Virus record (IMG/VR): IMGVR_UViG_3300017971_000875
Location: 1-20,164 of that record
Strand: one strand, 5' to 3'
From: a virus
DNA: 20,164 nucleotides
The notes beneath the pieces were generated by a model. That model was not told the origin of the DNA, did not search any database, and worked only from the letters and a program-made list of their open reading frames with translations. The position numbers and the translations under genes were made by a program. This document shows positions 9,348 to 19,807 of the stretch, in pieces (positions within the stretch are counted from its first letter, which is position 1; every line of letters begins with the position of its first letter).

Positions 9348-9689
9348 GTGAATGGCGTGGGGACGGATCAGGGGTTTTTGGATTGGGAGCTGCGGGGGCA
9401 CGGGACGGCGGAGATCACGAATGTCGTGGTGAAAAGCGAGCATCGCAGGCAGGGTGTGGGGACGGGGTTGGTGTTGAAGGCGCTGAATGCGATGCGAAGC
9501 GCTCGGGTGCGGTATGTGTATCTGTTTACGGAATTATCGAATGTAGGGGCGCAGTTGTTTTATGAGGCGCAGGGTTTTAAGAGGTTGCGGGTGATCGAGG
9601 GTTTGTATGAGCGGGGGGACGGGGTGCTGTACGGGATGGTGATTAGGGAAGAAGGAGGGCAACCACGGGGGGTTGCCCGTACGCGATAG
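9348..9689 (+). CDS. Short GNAT-family N-acetyltransferase
   Basis: 113 aa, starting at a GTG (9348) three bases after the previous stop. Motif A is present: VVVKSEHRRQGVGTGLVLKAL, with the RRQGVG acetyl-CoA pyrophosphate loop at about residues 33-38. The later strand/helix with NVGAQLFYEAQGFKRL is motif B. The domain is shorter than the usual 140-170 aa and lacks the first strand-helix pair, so the substrate side is incomplete or the protein works as a dimer. Its last ten or so codons are encoded by the hairpin at 9657-9678 (GGQPRGVARTR). An acetyltransferase inside a head operon is unusual. It might modify a virion protein or a host target; unknown. Confidence 0.75.
   Translation: MNGVGTDQGFLDWELRGHGTAEITNVVVKSEHRRQGVGTGLVLKALNAMRSARVRYVYLFTELSNVGAQLFYEAQGFKRLRVIEGLYERGDGVLYGMVIREEGGQPRGVARTR
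9657..9678. repeat. Perfect 8-bp hairpin (GGGCAACC/GGTTGCCC) at the GNAT 3' end
   Basis: GGGCAACC (9657-9664) and GGTTGCCC (9671-9678) enclose ACGGGG, followed by GTACG. It looks like a small interspersed palindrome of the GGGCGACC...GGTCGCCC type found in many genomes. It lies inside the reading frame and supplies the end of the protein. No T-run follows. Confidence 0.7.
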
Positions 9690-12391: not shown

Positions 12392-12457
12392 CTCCCTCCC
12401 CCAGCCCCTCCCAGCGGGAGGGGAGTAGGAAGCAGCTCCTCCCGCTGGGAGGGGAGC
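12392..12457. repeat. Dispersed GC-rich palindrome, copy B
   Basis: CTCCCTCCCCCAGCCCCTCC, then CAGCGGGAGGGGAG, is followed by a second near-palindrome (12435-12457, GCTCCTCCCGCTGGGAGGGG). It fills most of the gap between scaffold and capsid genes. Same family as copies A, C and D. Confidence 0.8.
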
Positions 12458-12480: not shown

Positions 12481-13335
12481 ATGGCAGCAACGAATCCAAG
12501 CACAGATATCAGTACCTATATCCAGACGATTTACAACGATGCGTGGTTTATCGCCCGGGACAACGCGATTATGCCGCGGTTGGTGACCACGTTTAACGAC
12601 GCGACCGGGACTCGGGATCGAACCAGCACGCGCTATAGTGAAGCGACAATCGCGACGCTGGGCGAGTTGGACGATCTCCAGAGCCAGGCGTTTACCCCAA
12701 GCGATATCGCAACGCTGACTCCGGCAGAGAAGGGGGCGCAATTCTTCCTGCCTGACACCAGGATCGAGTCGGATCCCATGGGTGTGCGCAGCGACGCGGC
12801 GATGGAGCTGGGGTACGCGATCGCGGAGAAGATCAACACGGACATCCTGGGGAACTTCTCCAGTCTGACGGCGGGTACGATCGGCGCCGCGGGCACTACG
12901 ATTACGTGGGGGCACTTCTTCGCGGCACTGAGCGCGCTGCGCAATGCGAAGGCGCCGATGCCGTACCGATGCGTGCTGCACGTTTACCAGTGGCATCAGT
13001 TGGCAAAGGCGGCCAGCATCGCGACCACGACCCAAGCGAACGCGCCAGAGTTCCAGGACGAAGTGACGCGGCAGTGGTTTGTAGGCCGCGTGGGTAATGT
13101 AGATGTGTTTATTACCTCGGACGTCACTGTGGACGCTACGGACGATGCAAATGGGGCGATGTTCAGCCCGCTGGCGCTGGCGTTGGATACCAGGCGGGCG
13201 CCGCGGCTGGAGCCGGAACGGGATGCGAGTCGGCGCGGTTGGGAACTGAATATGACGGCGATGTACGCGCATGGCGTCTGGCGACCGGAGTGGGGCGTGT
13301 GTATGACGTTTGACGCGGCGGCACCGACGTCTTAG
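12481..13335 (+). CDS. Probable major capsid protein (HK97-like)
   Basis: 284 aa; the ATG follows AGGAG (12468-12472). The position right after the scaffold, the length and the pattern fit a small major capsid protein of the siphovirus type. It has an N-terminal helix (IYNDAWFIARDNAIMPRLVT), a loop with charged residues, a long central helix pair, and a strand-rich C-terminal region ending in WRPEWGVCMTFDAA. SSLTAGTIGAAGTTITWGHF, then FAALSALRNAKAPMPYRCVL, looks like the A-domain entry. Codons end in C more often than in neighbouring genes (ATC, GAC, AAC), as expected for a highly expressed product. The exact fold is inferred. Confidence 0.8.
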   Translation: MAATNPSTDISTYIQTIYNDAWFIARDNAIMPRLVTTFNDATGTRDRTSTRYSEATIATLGELDDLQSQAFTPSDIATLTPAEKGAQFFLPDTRIESDPMGVRSDAAMELGYAIAEKINTDILGNFSSLTAGTIGAAGTTITWGHFFAALSALRNAKAPMPYRCVLHVYQWHQLAKAASIATTTQANAPEFQDEVTRQWFVGRVGNVDVFITSDVTVDATDDANGAMFSPLALALDTRRAPRLEPERDASRRGWELNMTAMYAHGVWRPEWGVCMTFDAAAPTS

Positions 13336-13387: not shown

Positions 13388-13792
13388 ATGGGTCAGGGAA
13401 GCAAGTTTTTGGTAGTGGCGCCGGACACGATGCCGGGTGATGGCGATCTGTGCTATCTGGCAAAAGCGAGTTCGACGTATGGCGGGTTTACGGTGATCGC
13501 TGCGCACGCGGTGACGGGCGTGGCGGGTACGCTGGATTTCGTGCTGCAGAACTATGGTTCGGGCGGCACGGTGGCGGGCGGTACCGTGGCGTCGATGGCC
13601 AGCGGGACGGCGACCGTGTGGGCGGCAGATACGCCGCAGTCGCTGACGGTGACAACCACGGCGGCAAACGCCTATATCGATAGCGGTGAGTGGTTGGTGC
13701 TGAAGAAGGTGGAGGCGGCTGCCGGAAACGATCTGACGGCGGACGCGACCGTGATCGTGGAGTACGTGGAAGGGATCACTACGGCGGGGTAG
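13388..13792 (+). CDS. Probable capsid decoration protein
   Basis: 134 aa, starting after a strong AAGGAG (13376-13381). It is small, beta-rich, full of Gly, Ala, Thr and Val (for example GGTVAGGTVASMASGTATV), without transmembrane segments or a signal peptide. A small beta protein directly behind the major capsid gene is commonly a decoration (cement) or head-completion protein. I cannot place it in a family. Its exposure on the virion would make it a possible target for the glycan enzymes encoded next. Confidence 0.6.
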   Translation: MGQGSKFLVVAPDTMPGDGDLCYLAKASSTYGGFTVIAAHAVTGVAGTLDFVLQNYGSGGTVAGGTVASMASGTATVWAADTPQSLTVTTTAANAYIDSGEWLVLKKVEAAAGNDLTADATVIVEYVEGITTAG

Positions 13793-13822: not shown

Positions 13823-13871
13823 TCTCCCTCCCCCAACCCCTCCCAGTGGGAGGGGGGATGGGGAGGGGGAT
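13823..13871. repeat. Dispersed GC-rich palindrome, copy C
   Basis: CTCCCTCCCCCAACCCCTCC, then CAGTGGGAGGGG and GATGGGGAGGGGGATC. It lies ahead of the GT-B gene; reading it as protein gives ISLPQPLPVGGG, which is not part of the enzyme. Confidence 0.75.
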
Positions 13872-13890: not shown

Positions 13891-15114
13891 GTGAGGATAT
13901 ATTGGCATAGTACGGCACCATGGAGCCCGAGCAGTTATTCGGTGTTGACGATGCGGGCGGTTCCGCCGATTGTACGGGCGGGGTATGAGGTGGTGCTGGG
14001 GACGTGGTACGGTTTGCAGGGTCAACCTATGCCGTGGACGATCCAGGCGAACGGGAAGAAAGCGACGTCTGTACGGGTGTTGCCGCATCACCAGGTGGGG
14101 GGGAATACGTACGGCGAGGCGATCATGGTGGAGAATTACCGCCGCAATGAGTGTGACGTGATGATGACGGTGTGTGACGTGTTTGTGTTTCCGCCAGAGG
14201 AGACAAGCAAAACGAATTTCGCTCCGTGGCTGCCAATCGATACGAGCCCGGTGGCTGGGGGTATCGTGCGGGCGTTGGGTCCGGCGATTTATCCGATGTG
14301 CTATAGCCAGTTTGGAGTGGATGAGCTGGCGAAGGCGGGTATTAATGCGAAATATGTGCCGTGTGGGGCTCCGATGGATGTGTTTACGCCGGGAGACAAG
14401 GCGGAGGCGCGGACGCGGTTCGACCTGGGACGGGAGTTTGATTTCCTGGTGAGTATGATAGCGGCGAACAAAGACGCGAACGATCGCAAAGGGTTCGCTG
14501 TGGCGCTGCAGGGGTTTGCGCAGTTCGTGGAGCGACGGCCAGAGGCACAGGCGGTGCTGTACGTGCACACGGATTGGGGCGGGCCGATAAAGGTGGGGGA
14601 GATCGCGAAGTCGCTGGGAGTGGGCGAGCACGTGGTGCAGCCGGATCAGTACGGGTACATTATGGGGATGCTGGGCGAGCAATATATGGTGGATGTGTAC
14701 CGGGCGTCGGATGTGCTGCTAAATCCGGCTAAATCGGAGGGGTTTGGCTTGCCGCTGGTGGAAGCGCAGATGTGCGGATGTCCGGTGATCGCGACGGATT
14801 TTGCAAACACGGATGAGCTGCTGAGCGCGGGATGGAAGGTGGGGGGACACCGGGCATGGTATCCGGGGGCGGAGGCGTGGCGGATGGAGGTGGAGCCGGG
14901 CCAGATCGCGGATGCCATGGAAGAGGCATGGCAGGAGCGGGATAATCCGAAGTTGAGGGAGAAGGCGCGGAAGGGCGTGGCCAAATACGATCAGGAGGCG
15001 GTTTTTGAGAAGTATTGGCGGCCTGCATTGCGGGATATCAAGAAGTTGGTGGATGCGGGGAAGAGTTTCTCCCTCCCCGAGCCCCTCCCGCTGGGAGGGG
15101 AGCAAGCGGAATGA
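13891..15114 (+). CDS. GT-B fold glycosyltransferase (GT4-like)
   Basis: 407 aa. I chose the GTG at 13891 because the frame then begins (V/M)RIYWHSTAPWSPSSY, the first beta strand and loop of GT-B enzymes, and GGGGGAGG (13881-13888) precedes it. The longer frame starts inside the palindromic repeat. The donor-binding C-terminal domain has the E-x7-E motif: E283-GFGLPLV-E291, in NPAKSEGFGLPLVEAQMCGC. The enzyme moves a sugar from a nucleotide donor, probably with retention as in GT4. The last 16 residues (about GKSFSLPEPLPLGGEQAE) are encoded by palindrome copy D and are likely a recent extension. Its stop overlaps the formyltransferase start (ATGA). Substrate unknown. Confidence 0.88.
   Translation: MRIYWHSTAPWSPSSYSVLTMRAVPPIVRAGYEVVLGTWYGLQGQPMPWTIQANGKKATSVRVLPHHQVGGNTYGEAIMVENYRRNECDVMMTVCDVFVFPPEETSKTNFAPWLPIDTSPVAGGIVRALGPAIYPMCYSQFGVDELAKAGINAKYVPCGAPMDVFTPGDKAEARTRFDLGREFDFLVSMIAANKDANDRKGFAVALQGFAQFVERRPEAQAVLYVHTDWGGPIKVGEIAKSLGVGEHVVQPDQYGYIMGMLGEQYMVDVYRASDVLLNPAKSEGFGLPLVEAQMCGCPVIATDFANTDELLSAGWKVGGHRAWYPGAEAWRMEVEPGQIADAMEEAWQERDNPKLREKARKGVAKYDQEAVFEKYWRPALRDIKKLVDAGKSFSLPEPLPLGGEQAE
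15068..15103. repeat. Dispersed GC-rich palindrome, copy D, within the GT coding end
   Basis: CTCCCTCCCCGAGCCCCTCC, then CGCTGGGAGGGGAG. It is in frame with the glycosyltransferase and encodes SLPEPLPLGGE. Confidence 0.85.
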
Positions 15115-15908
15115 AGCTGTTTTTGTGCGGTTTTGGGGTGGCAGGGGAGAGCGTGCTGCGGCGTGTGGTGAAGCGGCCAGATATTAATGAGGTGGCGGTT
15201 TTTACGCACGAGGCGGGAGTGCTGGGTCAGAGCTTGATGGGTGCGGCCGGGGAGCTGGGGGTGTGGTGCACGACGGGCAGCGTTAATCAGATGGGCCTAT
15301 GGCCGTTTGAGCCCGACGTGATTTCGAGTGTGTATTACCGGACGATCGTTAAGCCGCACGTGATCGATGCGGTAGGGGGGCGGATTTTCAACGCGCATTC
15401 GTCGCTGTTGCCACGGCACAGGGGAAGGTCGCCGGTGGCGTGGGCGATTGTGGAGGGGGATTTTACTACGGGTGTGACGTTTCATTATATAGATGAAGGG
15501 ATCGACACGGGCAAGGTGATTTTGCAGGTACCGATCCGGGTGGCGCCAGATGAGACGCAGGCGAGTCTATTTTCTAAGGTCGACGATGCGACGGTGGAAT
15601 ACTGGTCTACGGCGCTAACGATGGTGAAGTGGGGGTTGACGGGCTGGGAGCAAACGGCGGGGCTAACAAGCAATATGAGCTATCACAGCGCGGGTCCGCC
15701 GTATGGGGGGCGGATCGATCCGAATTGGCCGGAGGATCAGGTGGAGCGGTTTATTCGGGCTATGACGTATCCGCCGTTGCCGTACGCGACGGTGTATGGA
15801 GAGGAAGTCAGGAATCTGGATGAGTACAGAACGGTTTTACAACGTCACCATAGAGACGCCGTTTCGGAACAACGAGCGGCACATCGATCAATACATACAG
15901 CAAGCTGA
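15111..15908 (+). CDS. Formyltransferase (sugar N-formyltransferase-like)
   Basis: 265 aa, with the start ATG overlapping the previous TGA. The N10-formyl-tetrahydrofolate transferase core is clear: FNAHSSLLPRHRGRSPVAWA with N94 and H96, and the downstream HYIDEGIDTGKVILQ with D132. The H-to-D distance of 36 residues equals that of methionyl-tRNA formyltransferase (H108, D144), so the catalytic triad is intact. The protein lacks the tRNA-binding C-terminal domain of Fmt. Together with the glycosyltransferases around it, this points to N-formylation of an amino sugar, as for the formylated 3- and 4-amino sugars of surface glycans. No amino-sugar synthesis genes are seen, so the substrate may come from the host. 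The C-terminus overlaps the next gene by 89 bp. Confidence 0.88.
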   Translation: MKLFLCGFGVAGESVLRRVVKRPDINEVAVFTHEAGVLGQSLMGAAGELGVWCTTGSVNQMGLWPFEPDVISSVYYRTIVKPHVIDAVGGRIFNAHSSLLPRHRGRSPVAWAIVEGDFTTGVTFHYIDEGIDTGKVILQVPIRVAPDETQASLFSKVDDATVEYWSTALTMVKWGLTGWEQTAGLTSNMSYHSAGPPYGGRIDPNWPEDQVERFIRAMTYPPLPYATVYGEEVRNLDEYRTVLQRHHRDAVSEQRAAHRSIHTAS

Positions 15909-16548
15909 GGCGATCGACTATCCTCCCGAGCGGCTGCGCTGGGTCCTCGTGGAAGGGGACTCGGAGGATAACACGCTGGCGATGCTGGATGCGTGGGCGC
16001 ATGGCGATCGGCGACGGAAGATCACGAAGTGCGACACGGGGAAGCCACATTATGGGAGCATCGTGCATCCAGAGCGGTTTGCGACGCTGGCCAGGGTGTT
16101 TAATCACGGGCTGGAGGTGGCGATCGAGGATGATTGGGCTGATTACGTGTGGTTTATTCCCAGCGATGTGATCTATAAGCCGGATACGCTGCGGCGGTTG
16201 CTGAGCTGGGAGAAGGACGTGATCAGCCCTATGTTCTGGATTGGGGATCACCAGGGGGATCCGGTGCAGAACGCGAACGGGATGCGATTTTACGACGTGT
16301 GGGGTTTCATCCGGGAGGGGAGGCCGTTTCCGCCGTACGGTCCGGCGTGGTACGCGGCGCATTATCCGCAGGGGGCGATTGAGATGGAGACGACGGGGGG
16401 GATGATGTTGATGCGGGCGGATGTGCCACGGGCGGGATGTCGGCACACGGCGGAGGATGTGGATCACGGGTTGTGCGTGATGGCTCGGGAGGCGGGTTTT
16501 GAGGTGTGGTGTGATACGAGCACGCACATTGTGCATGGGGAGCGGTGA
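15820..16548 (+). CDS. Second glycosyltransferase (GT-A, GT2/GT62-like)
   Basis: 242 aa. The ATG at 15820 is preferred because AGGA (15810-15813) is six bases upstream and the protein then begins at the first strand (MSTERFYNVTIETPFRNNER). The segment EAIDYPPERLRWVLVEGDSE, then DNTLAML, is typical of GT-A enzymes. FIPSDVIYKPDTLRRLL holds the usual metal-binding position, here SDV (115-117) instead of a plain DxD. The rest matches Anp1/GT62-like and GT2-like proteins, including GGMMLMRADVPR and a late H/D-rich part. The gene overlaps both neighbours (89 bp with the formyltransferase, 14 bp with the next). Acceptor and donor are unknown. Confidence 0.75.
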   Translation: MSTERFYNVTIETPFRNNERHIDQYIQQAEAIDYPPERLRWVLVEGDSEDNTLAMLDAWAHGDRRRKITKCDTGKPHYGSIVHPERFATLARVFNHGLEVAIEDDWADYVWFIPSDVIYKPDTLRRLLSWEKDVISPMFWIGDHQGDPVQNANGMRFYDVWGFIREGRPFPPYGPAWYAAHYPQGAIEMETTGGMMLMRADVPRAGCRHTAEDVDHGLCVMAREAGFEVWCDTSTHIVHGER

Positions 16549-17140
16549 GTTTTACAGGGATGGACAGGTGACTGGCAGGGCGTTTATGATTTACGGTCCG
16601 GAGAGCAGCGGGAATCGACTTTTGCGGAGGATCCTGATCGATGGGGCGGGATGCGCGGGGGATCGAGATCTGGAGCAGAGGTTTGATCAGAGGCTGCCAT
16701 TGGCGGAGGATGAGCCGCTGATCGTGTGGGGTCGGAGTGTGCCGGGGATGGTTCCTCGGGGGAATTGGCCGCGATTTTACGATCGGGATGTGGGACAGGC
16801 GCGGAAGCACGGCTATGAGGTGTTTGGGTTGGTGCTGGTGCGTGATTGGTGTTGTATGGTGCAGAGCCAGGTGGACACGGAGTACAAGGCGGGGGCTAAT
16901 TACGGCTTGAATAGCCAGGCGGCGATGGATGTGTACACGAGAATATTCGATGCGTTTGAGCGGCTGGCGGTGTCGTATATGATCGTTTCGTATGAGGCGC
17001 TGGTGATGCGGCCGGAGAGGTTTGTGAGGCGGTTGTTTCGGGACTTGGGTCTTGACCAGGTAGGGGAGATCGAGGCGGTCTACGACGGGAACGCGAAGTA
17101 TTATGAGCGCTGGGCAAATCCGAATGTGAGGGATGCATGA
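16535..17140 (+). CDS. Sulfotransferase-like protein
   Basis: 201 aa if begun at the ATG at 16535, which overlaps the GT stop; a GTG at 16568 with AGGGA upstream and an ATG at 16586 are reasonable alternatives. The P-loop-like 5'-phosphosulfate-binding motif is IYGPESSGNRLLRRIL (GPESSGNR at 21-28). LVRDWCCMVQSQV, with R103 and S111, fits the 3'-phosphate loop. The C-terminus has VSYEALVMRPERFVRRLFRD plus LGL, matching the RYEDL block of PAPS sulfotransferases. It would add sulfate from PAPS to a sugar hydroxyl. It is somewhat small (family usually 250-300 aa). A nucleotide kinase is a less likely alternative. Its stop overlaps the beta-helix start (ATGA). Confidence 0.7.
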   Translation: MGSGEFYRDGQVTGRAFMIYGPESSGNRLLRRILIDGAGCAGDRDLEQRFDQRLPLAEDEPLIVWGRSVPGMVPRGNWPRFYDRDVGQARKHGYEVFGLVLVRDWCCMVQSQVDTEYKAGANYGLNSQAAMDVYTRIFDAFERLAVSYMIVSYEALVMRPERFVRRLFRDLGLDQVGEIEAVYDGNAKYYERWANPNVRDA

Positions 17141-18621
17141 CGTCGTATTACGTGGATCAGGATGGGGGGAGCGATAGCAATAGCGGGACGGCCTCGGGGC
17201 AGGCGTGGAAGACGCTGGATAAGGTTGATGATAACTTTTATGCTGGCACGTTCGGGGCGGGCGATTCAATTAATTTCCAGGGCGGCGATACATGGACGCA
17301 TACTGATGCGGACGACGTGTTGTTTATCCGCGATTGCTCGGGGTCTTCTGGGAATGAATTCGTAATTCAGGCATATGGGACGGGGCGCCCGGTGATCGAT
17401 GGCAATGGGGTGAACAGTTGGGCGTTGCATCGTTCGGTGAGCTGGCCCAGCGCTGATCATATGAAGATCAGGGTTTTGGAATTGACGGGCAGCGGGGTGA
17501 ATTGCATACAAGTGCAAGAATTGGAGTATCTGGAAATTGACGATGTTTATGTTCATGACGCGGAGCGCGGTATCCAAATAAGAGACGGCAATCATATTTT
17601 AGTCCAGAATTGCACAGTGGATACCATGAGCGAGGAGGGGATCTATTTCGGTAATGCTGCAAGTTACACATTAGAGCTAAATTATGGAACGATATCGAAT
17701 TGCACTGTTTCAAATACGAGATCAAACGGGATTGATATGAAGCAGGGCTGTTATGATTGTCTCATTGAGGATTGCGTGATAACAGACTGTGGCGATTGGG
17801 AACCTGCGGCGCTGATGCTGGGCGGGGCGCGGAATATAGTGCAGCGGGTATATGTTACGGGATCGGGTACAATCGCGAACAGGGCGTTTCAAAACGGGGC
17901 CTATATGGCCGGGCACGATCCCAGTCTGAACTATACGGGGCATGTTGTTAGGGAGTGCACGTCTGTCGGAATGACGGCTGACGAAGGCGGAATGTTTATG
18001 TACGGCGATGCCAATCAGACGTTGAATTGTGCGTTCATCGATGGCAGCTATGGCATCGGGTATTTGAACAGTGCAGGTTTGGGAACGTCGACCAAACAAA
18101 AGTTGCGGGGGAATTATTTTAGCGGAAACAGTGATGACGACATTTGCACTGAAACGACGTCAATGCTGGATAGCGACTATAATTGCTATGCGGACGCGGG
18201 GAGCTGGGAGGTGAGCAGCACATCGAGATCGCTGTCATATGTGCGAGCTGTTTGGGGTTTCGAGGAGAACAGTCGATCAGATATCAGCATCGATGCTGGC
18301 ACGAGTGTGTACGTGAACGATATCGAGAACGTGACGTCGGGAGGGGGGATGATTTACGTGGATGTCACGTACCGGATCGGGGGCGAGGACCAGCACAGAA
18401 CATCACATATGATGCGGCTGAATAACTCGGCGGAGTGGGTGCATGAATTGCTGATGAATCTCAAATTGTATATCTCTGAGGATTCTGATTTTAGCGGGCG
18501 CGGCGCTGATGAACGGGATACGAATATTAGCACGGACAGCGACGATCCGGAGGGAATTCTGGCAGATAGTGCTGTGGCGGCGCTAGTCGGCGCGGAGACG
18601 TGGTTGTACTACAATGCCTAG
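17137..18621 (+). CDS. Parallel beta-helix surface protein (tailspike-like)
   Basis: 494 aa. Residues 1-60 start with YYVDQDGGSDSNSGTASGQA, the 'GSDSNSGTs..pwkTl' opener common to pectate-lyase-like right-handed beta-helix proteins. Short repeated coils follow to about residue 340 (LEYLEIDDVYVHDAERGIQI; ILVQNCTVDTMSEEGIYFGN; CLIEDCVITDCGDWEPAALM), the repeat style of beta-helix domains. A beta-rich C-terminal domain (about 345-494) follows. No signal peptide is present. Such proteins are phage tailspikes or depolymerases binding polysaccharide. No catalytic residues can be assigned. The coding sequence has more A/T and less G bias than its neighbours. ATGA overlap with the sulfotransferase gene; 8-bp overlap with the next. 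Confidence 0.85.
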   Translation: MTSYYVDQDGGSDSNSGTASGQAWKTLDKVDDNFYAGTFGAGDSINFQGGDTWTHTDADDVLFIRDCSGSSGNEFVIQAYGTGRPVIDGNGVNSWALHRSVSWPSADHMKIRVLELTGSGVNCIQVQELEYLEIDDVYVHDAERGIQIRDGNHILVQNCTVDTMSEEGIYFGNAASYTLELNYGTISNCTVSNTRSNGIDMKQGCYDCLIEDCVITDCGDWEPAALMLGGARNIVQRVYVTGSGTIANRAFQNGAYMAGHDPSLNYTGHVVRECTSVGMTADEGGMFMYGDANQTLNCAFIDGSYGIGYLNSAGLGTSTKQKLRGNYFSGNSDDDICTETTSMLDSDYNCYADAGSWEVSSTSRSLSYVRAVWGFEENSRSDISIDAGTSVYVNDIENVTSGGGMIYVDVTYRIGGEDQHRTSHMMRLNNSAEWVHELLMNLKLYISEDSDFSGRGADERDTNISTDSDDPEGILADSAVAALVGAETWLYYNA

Positions 18622-19807
18622 TGTCATATTGCAGGTAAACGCATCGTCTGACGATGCAAACCAGACAAGCGGAACTCAGGTATTAACGTCGGATTCCAGC
18701 CCGACGATAGTGCAAGCTGGTGCGTGGTTGGGAGCGCGGTTCACGACCGTGCCGTTGGGGGGCAGTTATACAATTACGTCCGCATATCTGGAGATGTATG
18801 CTCACGATAGCGCCAATGACGAAATTCATTTTGTGATCTATGGAGAGGATGAGGACGACGCGGCGACGTTTGCGGCGACGGCCAGCAATATATCCAATCG
18901 GACAACGACCTCCGGATCAGTGAGCTGGGACAGCGCCAGCGTGGGCGTGGGCTGGCAGGCGAGTCCGGACATCACAACGATCATTCAGGAAATCATCGAC
19001 CGGGGAGGGTGGAGCCAGTACAACGCGCTGGCTGTGCTATTGAATAGCACGAGTGGGGTGGATTTTGAGCCGCGAATGTACGATTATACCGGCAACTCGT
19101 ACGGAGCGCGGCTGATAATTGAGTATACGGTGGGGACGCTAGCGGCGGCTACTACACTGAGCGTGACAGTGAGCGTGGTGGCGCCGACGGTGAGCGGGGA
19201 CAGCGGGGTTACGGTCAGCACGCTGAGCGTGACGGTCAGCACGGTATCGCCCGCGGCCGTGACCGGGGTGCTGGCGGCGGTTAACGCGCTGGCGGTGACG
19301 GTCAGCACGGTATCGCCTACGGTGTCGCTGGGCACTAACCAGAGTATCAGTCTAAGCGCGCTGGCGGTGACGGTCAGCACGGTATCGCCCACGGCCATGG
19401 CCGGTGCGCTGGCGGCGGTCAATACGCAGACGCTGACGACGAGCCTGGTGGATCGGGCGGTAACTACCAATTCAAACGCGGTTGCGCTGACGGTTCCGGT
19501 GGTGTTGACTGCCAGTGTGCTATCTCTGATGGTCAGTGGGGATTGCGCGGTGACGGTCAGCACGCTGACGGCGACGGTCAGCGCGGTATCGCCCACGGCC
19601 ATGGCCGGTGCGCTGGCGGCGGTGGGGGAGCAGTCGCTGATGGCAAGCGTGGTGGATCCAACGATCAGCGGGGACGCGGTGGCGGTGGCCAGCACGCAGG
19701 CGGTGACGGTGGCCGCGATTGTGGTGACGGTATCGACGGTGCGGAATATCATCACGCTGACGCTGAACGATCGATCGACGGGATTGACGCTGAATGATGT
19801 GTTATAG
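18614..19807 (+). CDS. Surface protein with jelly-roll-like head and repetitive beta stalk
   Basis: 397 aa, ATG at 18614 inside the previous gene's end. Residues 1-173 look like a jelly-roll or carbohydrate-binding module (ITSAYLEMYAHDSANDEIHF, later NALAVLLNSTSGVDFEPRMY), similar to the beta-sandwich domains often seen in Chloroflexota surface proteins. From about residue 175 the chain becomes tandem short repeats of the type (S/A)LAVTVSTVSPTxxxG, poor in charge and rich in Val, Thr, Ala and Ser. It ends in TLTLNDRSTGLTLNDVL. The repeats are also exact at DNA level (see the repeat entry), so copy number may vary. Likely a fibre or stalk on the virion or cell surface. No signal peptide. Confidence 0.7.
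   Translation: MPSVILQVNASSDDANQTSGTQVLTSDSSPTIVQAGAWLGARFTTVPLGGSYTITSAYLEMYAHDSANDEIHFVIYGEDEDDAATFAATASNISNRTTTSGSVSWDSASVGVGWQASPDITTIIQEIIDRGGWSQYNALAVLLNSTSGVDFEPRMYDYTGNSYGARLIIEYTVGTLAAATTLSVTVSVVAPTVSGDSGVTVSTLSVTVSTVSPAAVTGVLAAVNALAVTVSTVSPTVSLGTNQSISLSALAVTVSTVSPTAMAGALAAVNTQTLTTSLVDRAVTTNSNAVALTVPVVLTASVLSLMVSGDCAVTVSTLTATVSAVSPTAMAGALAAVGEQSLMASVVDPTISGDAVAVASTQAVTVAAIVVTVSTVRNIITLTLNDRSTGLTLNDVL
19286..19623. repeat. Long direct repeats inside the stalk gene
   Basis: A 32-bp unit (begins GCGCTGGCGGTGACGGTCAG) is identical at 19286-19317 and 19358-19389. A 40-bp unit (begins CGGTATCGCCCACGGCCATG) is identical at 19380-19419 and 19584-19623. Both are in frame, so recombination between them would change the number of protein repeats without a frameshift. 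Confidence 0.85.

Follow-up and report, generated by a model that had tools for sequence, protein, structure and literature searches.

A coupled glycan cassette inside a phage structural operon is a locus of an already known kind. In the Corndog-type (Cluster O) mycobacteriophages, an O-methyltransferase, two glycosyltransferases, and an N-acetylglucosamine (GlcNAc)-transferase are encoded inside the virion operon, and the capsid was suggested in 2015 as the target of this cassette (PMC4351075). Virion glycans are demonstrated for Che8, Corndog, and Myrna according to work cited in passages of PMC12363180, and glycans on the capsid and tail tube of mycobacteriophages lower antibody binding according to work cited in passages of PMC12363180 and PMC12619734. 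In the literature searched, virion glycosylation is proven in just a few mycobacteriophages. Here, we describe a four-gene cassette in the IMG/VR virus record IMGVR_UViG_3300017971_000875, a linear record of 20,164 bases that was taken in full and is called the window below. The cassette encodes, in order, a GT-B glycosyltransferase, a sugar N-formyltransferase, a GT-A glycosyltransferase, and a sulfotransferase-like protein. With moderate confidence, we favor a reading in which the cassette is expressed late and glycosylates the virion surface by means of a constant first transferase and exchangeable tailoring enzymes; its target and chemistry are unproven.

Comparison with described glycan cassettes

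The sequence-only reading of this DNA held a coupled set of this type in a structural operon to be undescribed. That claim falls, since the Corndog cassette (PMC4351075) precedes it and virion glycans are known (PMC12363180). Corndog resembles the present case in having several glycan genes, including a methyltransferase (gp35-gp38), within the virion structural operon, and this phage likewise carries two glycosyltransferase genes (GT-B and GT-A) in such an operon. The two differ in placement and content: the Corndog genes lie between portal and protease, whereas those of the window follow the decoration gene, and the Cluster O paper mentions no formyltransferase or sulfotransferase (PMC4351075). 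The glycosyltransferases of the two groups are unrelated at the BLAST level, as tblastn with GT-B and GT-A finds no mycobacteriophage.

Closer in layout are the Pontimonas phage phiPsal1 and the isolate Microcystis phage Mae-JY09, which carry a related GT-B (28-33% identity) directly behind the capsid gene. In Mae-JY09, the GT-B lies right behind capsid and decoration and is followed by an epimerase and then neck genes; phiPsal1 shares the layout, with its capsid annotated differently, and continues with a methyltransferase and a GT2 before the neck genes. Unlike the window, both are without formyltransferase or sulfotransferase. A literature search, with subscription journals mostly outside it, returned no paper that makes this combination of a phage glycosyltransferase with a formyltransferase and the capsid. 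Amino-sugar formylation, the swap of formyl for acetyl transfer, and possible sulfation appear to be new.

A constant glycosyltransferase gene behind the capsid gene

We anchored the scan for relatives on the capsid protein rather than on any glycan gene, and it returned 51 contigs. Counts refer to the 29 non-seed contigs that extend 1.8 kb or more past the capsid gene, or to the 26 that are left once three near-identical copies are removed. A gene of the GT-B family begins within 1.2 kb past the capsid gene in 25 of the 29 contigs (23 of the 26 distinct ones), a sample tilted toward the kin of the seeds because the seeds themselves carry GT-Bs. Of the 26, three depart from this pattern: one contig carries its GT-B some 5 kb farther downstream, and the other two have the most divergent capsids (30-31%). 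Among more remote phages that share the capsid family, those of Pelagibacter and of lakes have no annotated glycosyltransferase at that site. In contig L098, the capsid, decoration, and connector genes stand in direct succession and the cassette site is empty; the label "connector" is assigned solely by position and recurrence.

Past GT-B, the content of the site varies. The 77 proteins encoded between GT-B and the head-tail genes, called by a simple script that could miss small genes, include matches to Glycos_transf_2 (15), Methyltransf_24 (8), Epimerase (5), Radical_SAM (3), Formyl_trans_N (2), and PglD_N (2), where one protein may match several families. GT-A occurs with a formyltransferase in this phage and in L005, and L012 has a formyltransferase directly behind which its contig ends. 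L011 and L014 combine GT-A with a NeuD-type acetyltransferase and Methyltransf_24. Elsewhere, we find a radical SAM protein with an epimerase (L016) or with no epimerase seen (L060), a glycosyltransferase with an epimerase (Mae-JY09, L069, L081, and L086), and a GT2 with a methyltransferase (L018, L021, and L093). Two relatives also have sugar-biosynthesis genes in the head operon, immediately ahead of scaffold. In L072 (1649-4959), these encode a DegT, an epimerase-like fragment, and a thiamine-dependent enzyme split in two; in L068 (334-2140), they encode a DegT and an epimerase. Both stretches look like an additional location for glycan genes within the head operon.

A cassette recurs at the same site in related phages; all four genes together are seen in this record alone, and the formyltransferase in two relatives. 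The idea of a conserved four-gene unit was discarded, GT-B alone being constant among relatives. The four genes were not found as a common bacterial operon free of phage neighbors; finding them in that form would, by the sequence-only reading, have refuted its proposal. An amino sugar can be capped by either N-formyl or N-acetyl transfer, so the swap between them suggests that the relatives share an amino-sugar core with a variable cap.

In dozens of environmental phages, a fixed site beside the capsid gene holds one constant glycosyltransferase gene while the tailoring genes are swapped, which suggests that glycans on the coat are widespread and subject to diversifying selection. The cause of this diversity, whether defence receptors, grazing, adhesion, or stability, becomes testable through comparison, and the cassettes may yield sugar-tailoring enzymes. 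A broader proposition is possible, but we hold it with considerable doubt: that a large and mostly uncultured phage group has a standing capsid-coat glycan locus, in which a fixed first transferase is combined with exchangeable N-acyl (formyl or acetyl), methyl, and sulfate enzymes to give each phage a distinct surface, and that the present member is the first with an N-formylated, sulfated virion glycan.

The cassette enzymes

Three of the four identities first assigned to these genes are firm, with GT-B, formyltransferase, and GT-A above their Pfam cut-offs, whereas the sulfotransferase is weak and falls below both of its own. GT-B begins with a GTG start after AGGGGGAGG and matches Glyco_trans_1_4 (E 4e-12) and Glycos_transf_1 (E 2e-11), both over curated cut-offs, as well as the glycosyltransferase family phrog_2170 (E 1e-26). 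Its E-x7-E motif (E283 and E291) is invariant among seven aligned sequences. A bacterial genome scan returned no relatives of GT-B, using two short patterns that distant ones could escape. GT-A matches Glycos_transf_2 (E 3e-8) and Anp1 (E 3e-7), again over curated cut-offs; when it is aligned with relatives in L005, L011, L014, L029, and L038, EGDSxDxT is invariant and Asp 115 is conserved.

The formyltransferase matches Formyl_trans_N (E 8e-26, over the curated cut-off), and its N-H-D triad is intact as first read, with N94, H96, and D132 invariant in four aligned sequences. In a PDB sequence search, its top match was 5vys, a GDP-4-amino-4,6-dideoxymannose N-formyltransferase (E 7e-33, residues 3-242), ahead of weaker matches to ArnA (E 2e-20) and the methionyl-tRNA formyltransferase Fmt (E 7e-17). 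This activity is the one given in the PDB entry; the enzyme itself, from the 5vyr-5vyu set, we take to be Brucella WbkC. Over the full length, WbkC scores 117 bits vs 76 for ArnA, 65 for Fmt, and 58 for PurN, and the likeness to WbkC includes the C-terminal region and the catalytic triad. The two differ in setting: WbkC serves the lipopolysaccharide O-chain, whereas the present enzyme stands in a phage head operon without an adjoining aminotransferase. The closest relative in the bacterial genome scan belongs to a Planctomycetota metagenome-assembled genome, where the gene lies between a DegT sugar aminotransferase and GT-B plus Methyltransf_24. With WbkC as the best match and the bacterial relative lying beside DegT, an amino-deoxy sugar nucleotide is a fair inference as to the substrate class, though not as to the exact sugar.

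Related genes occur in other viruses. A formyltransferase 47% identical to that of the window lies at 10001-10741 of L057, a viral contig of 458 kb, as one of many successive genes on the same strand; its four scanned neighbors are without a Pfam match, and the same contig carries a DegT gene at 339492-340517. Genes of P-SSM7 and S-SKS1 annotated as phosphoribosylglycinamide formyltransferase match the sugar formyltransferase of the window over part of their own length, and some of them may be sugar rather than purine enzymes.

These enzymes could act on targets other than the virion. Some phage glycosyltransferases are known to decorate DNA (work cited in passages of PMC12619734), and glycosylation of hypermodified phage DNA is conceivable here, but we regard it as very improbable: the scanned genes include no base-modification enzymes, and a sugar-nucleotide N-formyltransferase and a capsid-adjacent site fit it poorly. 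Modification of the host envelope, as in serotype conversion or superinfection exclusion, would have the enzymes change the host surface polysaccharide during infection. WbkC, ArnA, and NeuD-type enzymes normally serve surface-glycan pathways, the nearest bacterial formyltransferase is located in a glycan operon, and a ParA gene in the window hints at a possible extrachromosomal prophage state. Yet the cassette sits inside the head operon in many relatives and is translationally coupled to a structural-type gene, the scanned neighbors are structural or unassigned, no Gtr-type flippase or integrase turned up (no search was aimed at these), and late expression would soon end in lysis. On balance, we consider envelope modification quite unlikely.

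Candidate acceptors and proposed steps

We favor modification of the virion surface because the cassette would be co-expressed late with the shell genes, encodes enzymes that modify and transfer sugars, and keeps a conserved position beside the shell genes. The putative decoration protein is a candidate glycan acceptor, Ser/Thr-rich (19.4% Ser+Thr) and surface-exposed if it is a cement protein. Its AlphaFold2 model (predicted local distance difference test score, pLDDT, 82) has an all-beta fold and weakly resembles the phage cement proteins 7eel_H and 7dou_4 (Pam1 and KHP40; template modeling scores 0.42-0.49). The protein has no family match, and a PHROGs search returned none for it or for the presumed connector genes. 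Other candidates are the capsid protein, the beta-helix protein, and the repeat protein.

The last two candidates bring in a tail or fiber target, namely the coupled beta-helix protein or the Ser/Thr-rich repeat protein that follows it, instead of the capsid. The cassette is joined to the beta-helix gene by an ATGA overlap; the protein encoded at 18614-19807 has 27.5% Ser+Thr in long internal repeats (AVTVSTVSPT...) and is a possible tail protein and glycan acceptor; and L005 also has a low-complexity protein downstream. Most relatives with GT-B behind capsid and decoration, however, have head-tail connector genes rather than a beta-helix gene past the cassette, and we think a tail target unlikely.

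If the virion surface is the target, GT-B, co-expressed with capsid and decoration proteins, would attach the first sugar to a surface protein, most likely decoration or capsid. The formyltransferase would N-formylate a nucleotide-linked 4-amino-4,6-dideoxy sugar, possibly GDP-perosamine-like, to judge by the class of WbkC. The amino-sugar donor would be supplied by the host or by phage genes outside the sequenced part; the record ends before the late operon is complete. GT-A would then add the N-formyl sugar or another sugar, with possible sulfation of the product by the fourth protein. Among sister phages, the tailoring steps would be exchanged, N-acetyl for N-formyl and methyl for possible sulfate, so that the coat glycan diversifies while GT-B stays put.

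Several observations weigh against this proposal. The acceptors are candidates, and virion modification is a prediction from the genes. The record contains no DegT gene for nucleotide-amino-sugar synthesis, so the donor sugar must come from elsewhere. Across 33 phages, GT-B and capsid distances are uncorrelated (Mantel rho 0.04, a value reached in 721 of 2000 permutations), and a fixed enzyme-substrate partnership is thus without support. Strict vertical co-inheritance of GT-B with the capsid was dropped for the same reason; positional conservation stands, and the uncorrelated divergence fits GT-B exchange. Finally, the fourth protein is a sulfotransferase only tentatively: its matches to Stf0 (E 0.001; 19.1 bits vs a curated cut-off of 22) and Sulfotransfer_3 (E 0.0034; 18.1 vs 27) fall short. 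Read from the translation, RDWCCMVQS fits the 3'-phosphate-binding motif (Arg, with Ser eight residues on) and SYEALVMRPE..RDLGL fits the usual C-terminal motif. The candidate loop for the 5'-phosphosulfate of 3'-phosphoadenosine-5'-phosphosulfate (PAPS), GPESSGNRLL, resembles such a loop but is atypical, with Glu replacing the Lys/Arg of Lys/Arg-Ser/Thr-Gly-Thr. Viral, phage, and plasmid searches returned zero relatives, and PF13469 run over 53 phage records matched this record and none of the 52 others. A single-sequence structure model was too poor (pLDDT 39) and was discarded.

Locus layout and other features

The four cassette genes are all open on the plus strand over 13891-17140, and the coupling described from the sequence holds: the overlaps are 4 nt (ATGA) between GT-B and formyltransferase, 89 nt between formyltransferase and GT-A, 14 nt between GT-A and the sulfotransferase-like gene, and 4 nt (ATGA) between the latter and the beta-helix gene. 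Neighbor families and coordinates also bear out the placement between the capsid and decoration genes and the beta-helix gene. Upstream, the head module comprises terminase, portal, Mu-F-like protein, a 227-aa protein in scaffold position, capsid, and the small beta protein, with terminase, portal, Mu-F, and capsid confirmed; downstream, the beta-helix protein is followed by the Ser/Thr-rich repeat protein. In third-position base bias, the cassette closely resembles the portal, Mu-F-like, and scaffold genes, so composition gives no sign of recent foreign insertion.

Table 1. Features of the cassette and its surroundings in the window
Feature	Coordinates	Strand	Basis or remark
Major capsid protein	12481..13335	+	Phage_capsid_4 E 6e-9; phrog_267 major head protein E 1e-12; scan anchor
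Putative decoration (cement) protein, candidate glycan acceptor	13388..13792	+	Conserved after the capsid gene in relatives
GT-B (GT4-like) glycosyltransferase, 407 aa	13891..15114	+	Conserved first cassette gene
WbkC-type nucleotide-amino-sugar N-formyltransferase (predicted), 265 aa	15111..15908	+	Formyl_trans_N
GT-A (GT2/Anp1-like) glycosyltransferase, 242 aa	15820..16548	+	Glycos_transf_2, Anp1
Sulfotransferase-like P-loop protein (tentative), 201 aa	16535..17140	+	Stf0, Sulfotransfer_3, both sub-cut-off
Right-handed beta-helix protein, ATGA-coupled to the cassette	17137..18621	+	Beta_helix E 2e-15; phrog_2234 tail spike E 0.003
Palindrome copies	937-968, 12392-12423, 13824-13855, 15069-15100	+ for last two	Repeat count

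A GNAT acetyltransferase gene (9348-9689) lies directly before the Mu-F-like gene, and a relative (37%) occupies the interval between portal and Mu-F in L012. The ParA-type partition ATPase gene, at 1499-2266, suggests a phage-plasmid life style.

A GC-rich interrupted palindrome, CTCCCTCCCC..GGGAGGGG, occurs in four same-orientation copies in the window, with zero expected by chance. Two copies flank GT-B, one between the decoration gene and GT-B (13824-13855) and the other inside the 3' end of GT-B (15069-15100), where it puts GGGAGGGGAG immediately ahead of the formyltransferase start. A comparison with plasmids gave matches in Sphingomonas and cyanobacteria and was indecisive as to the host. 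The palindromes could aid recombination of the cassette, or they could mirror host repeats.

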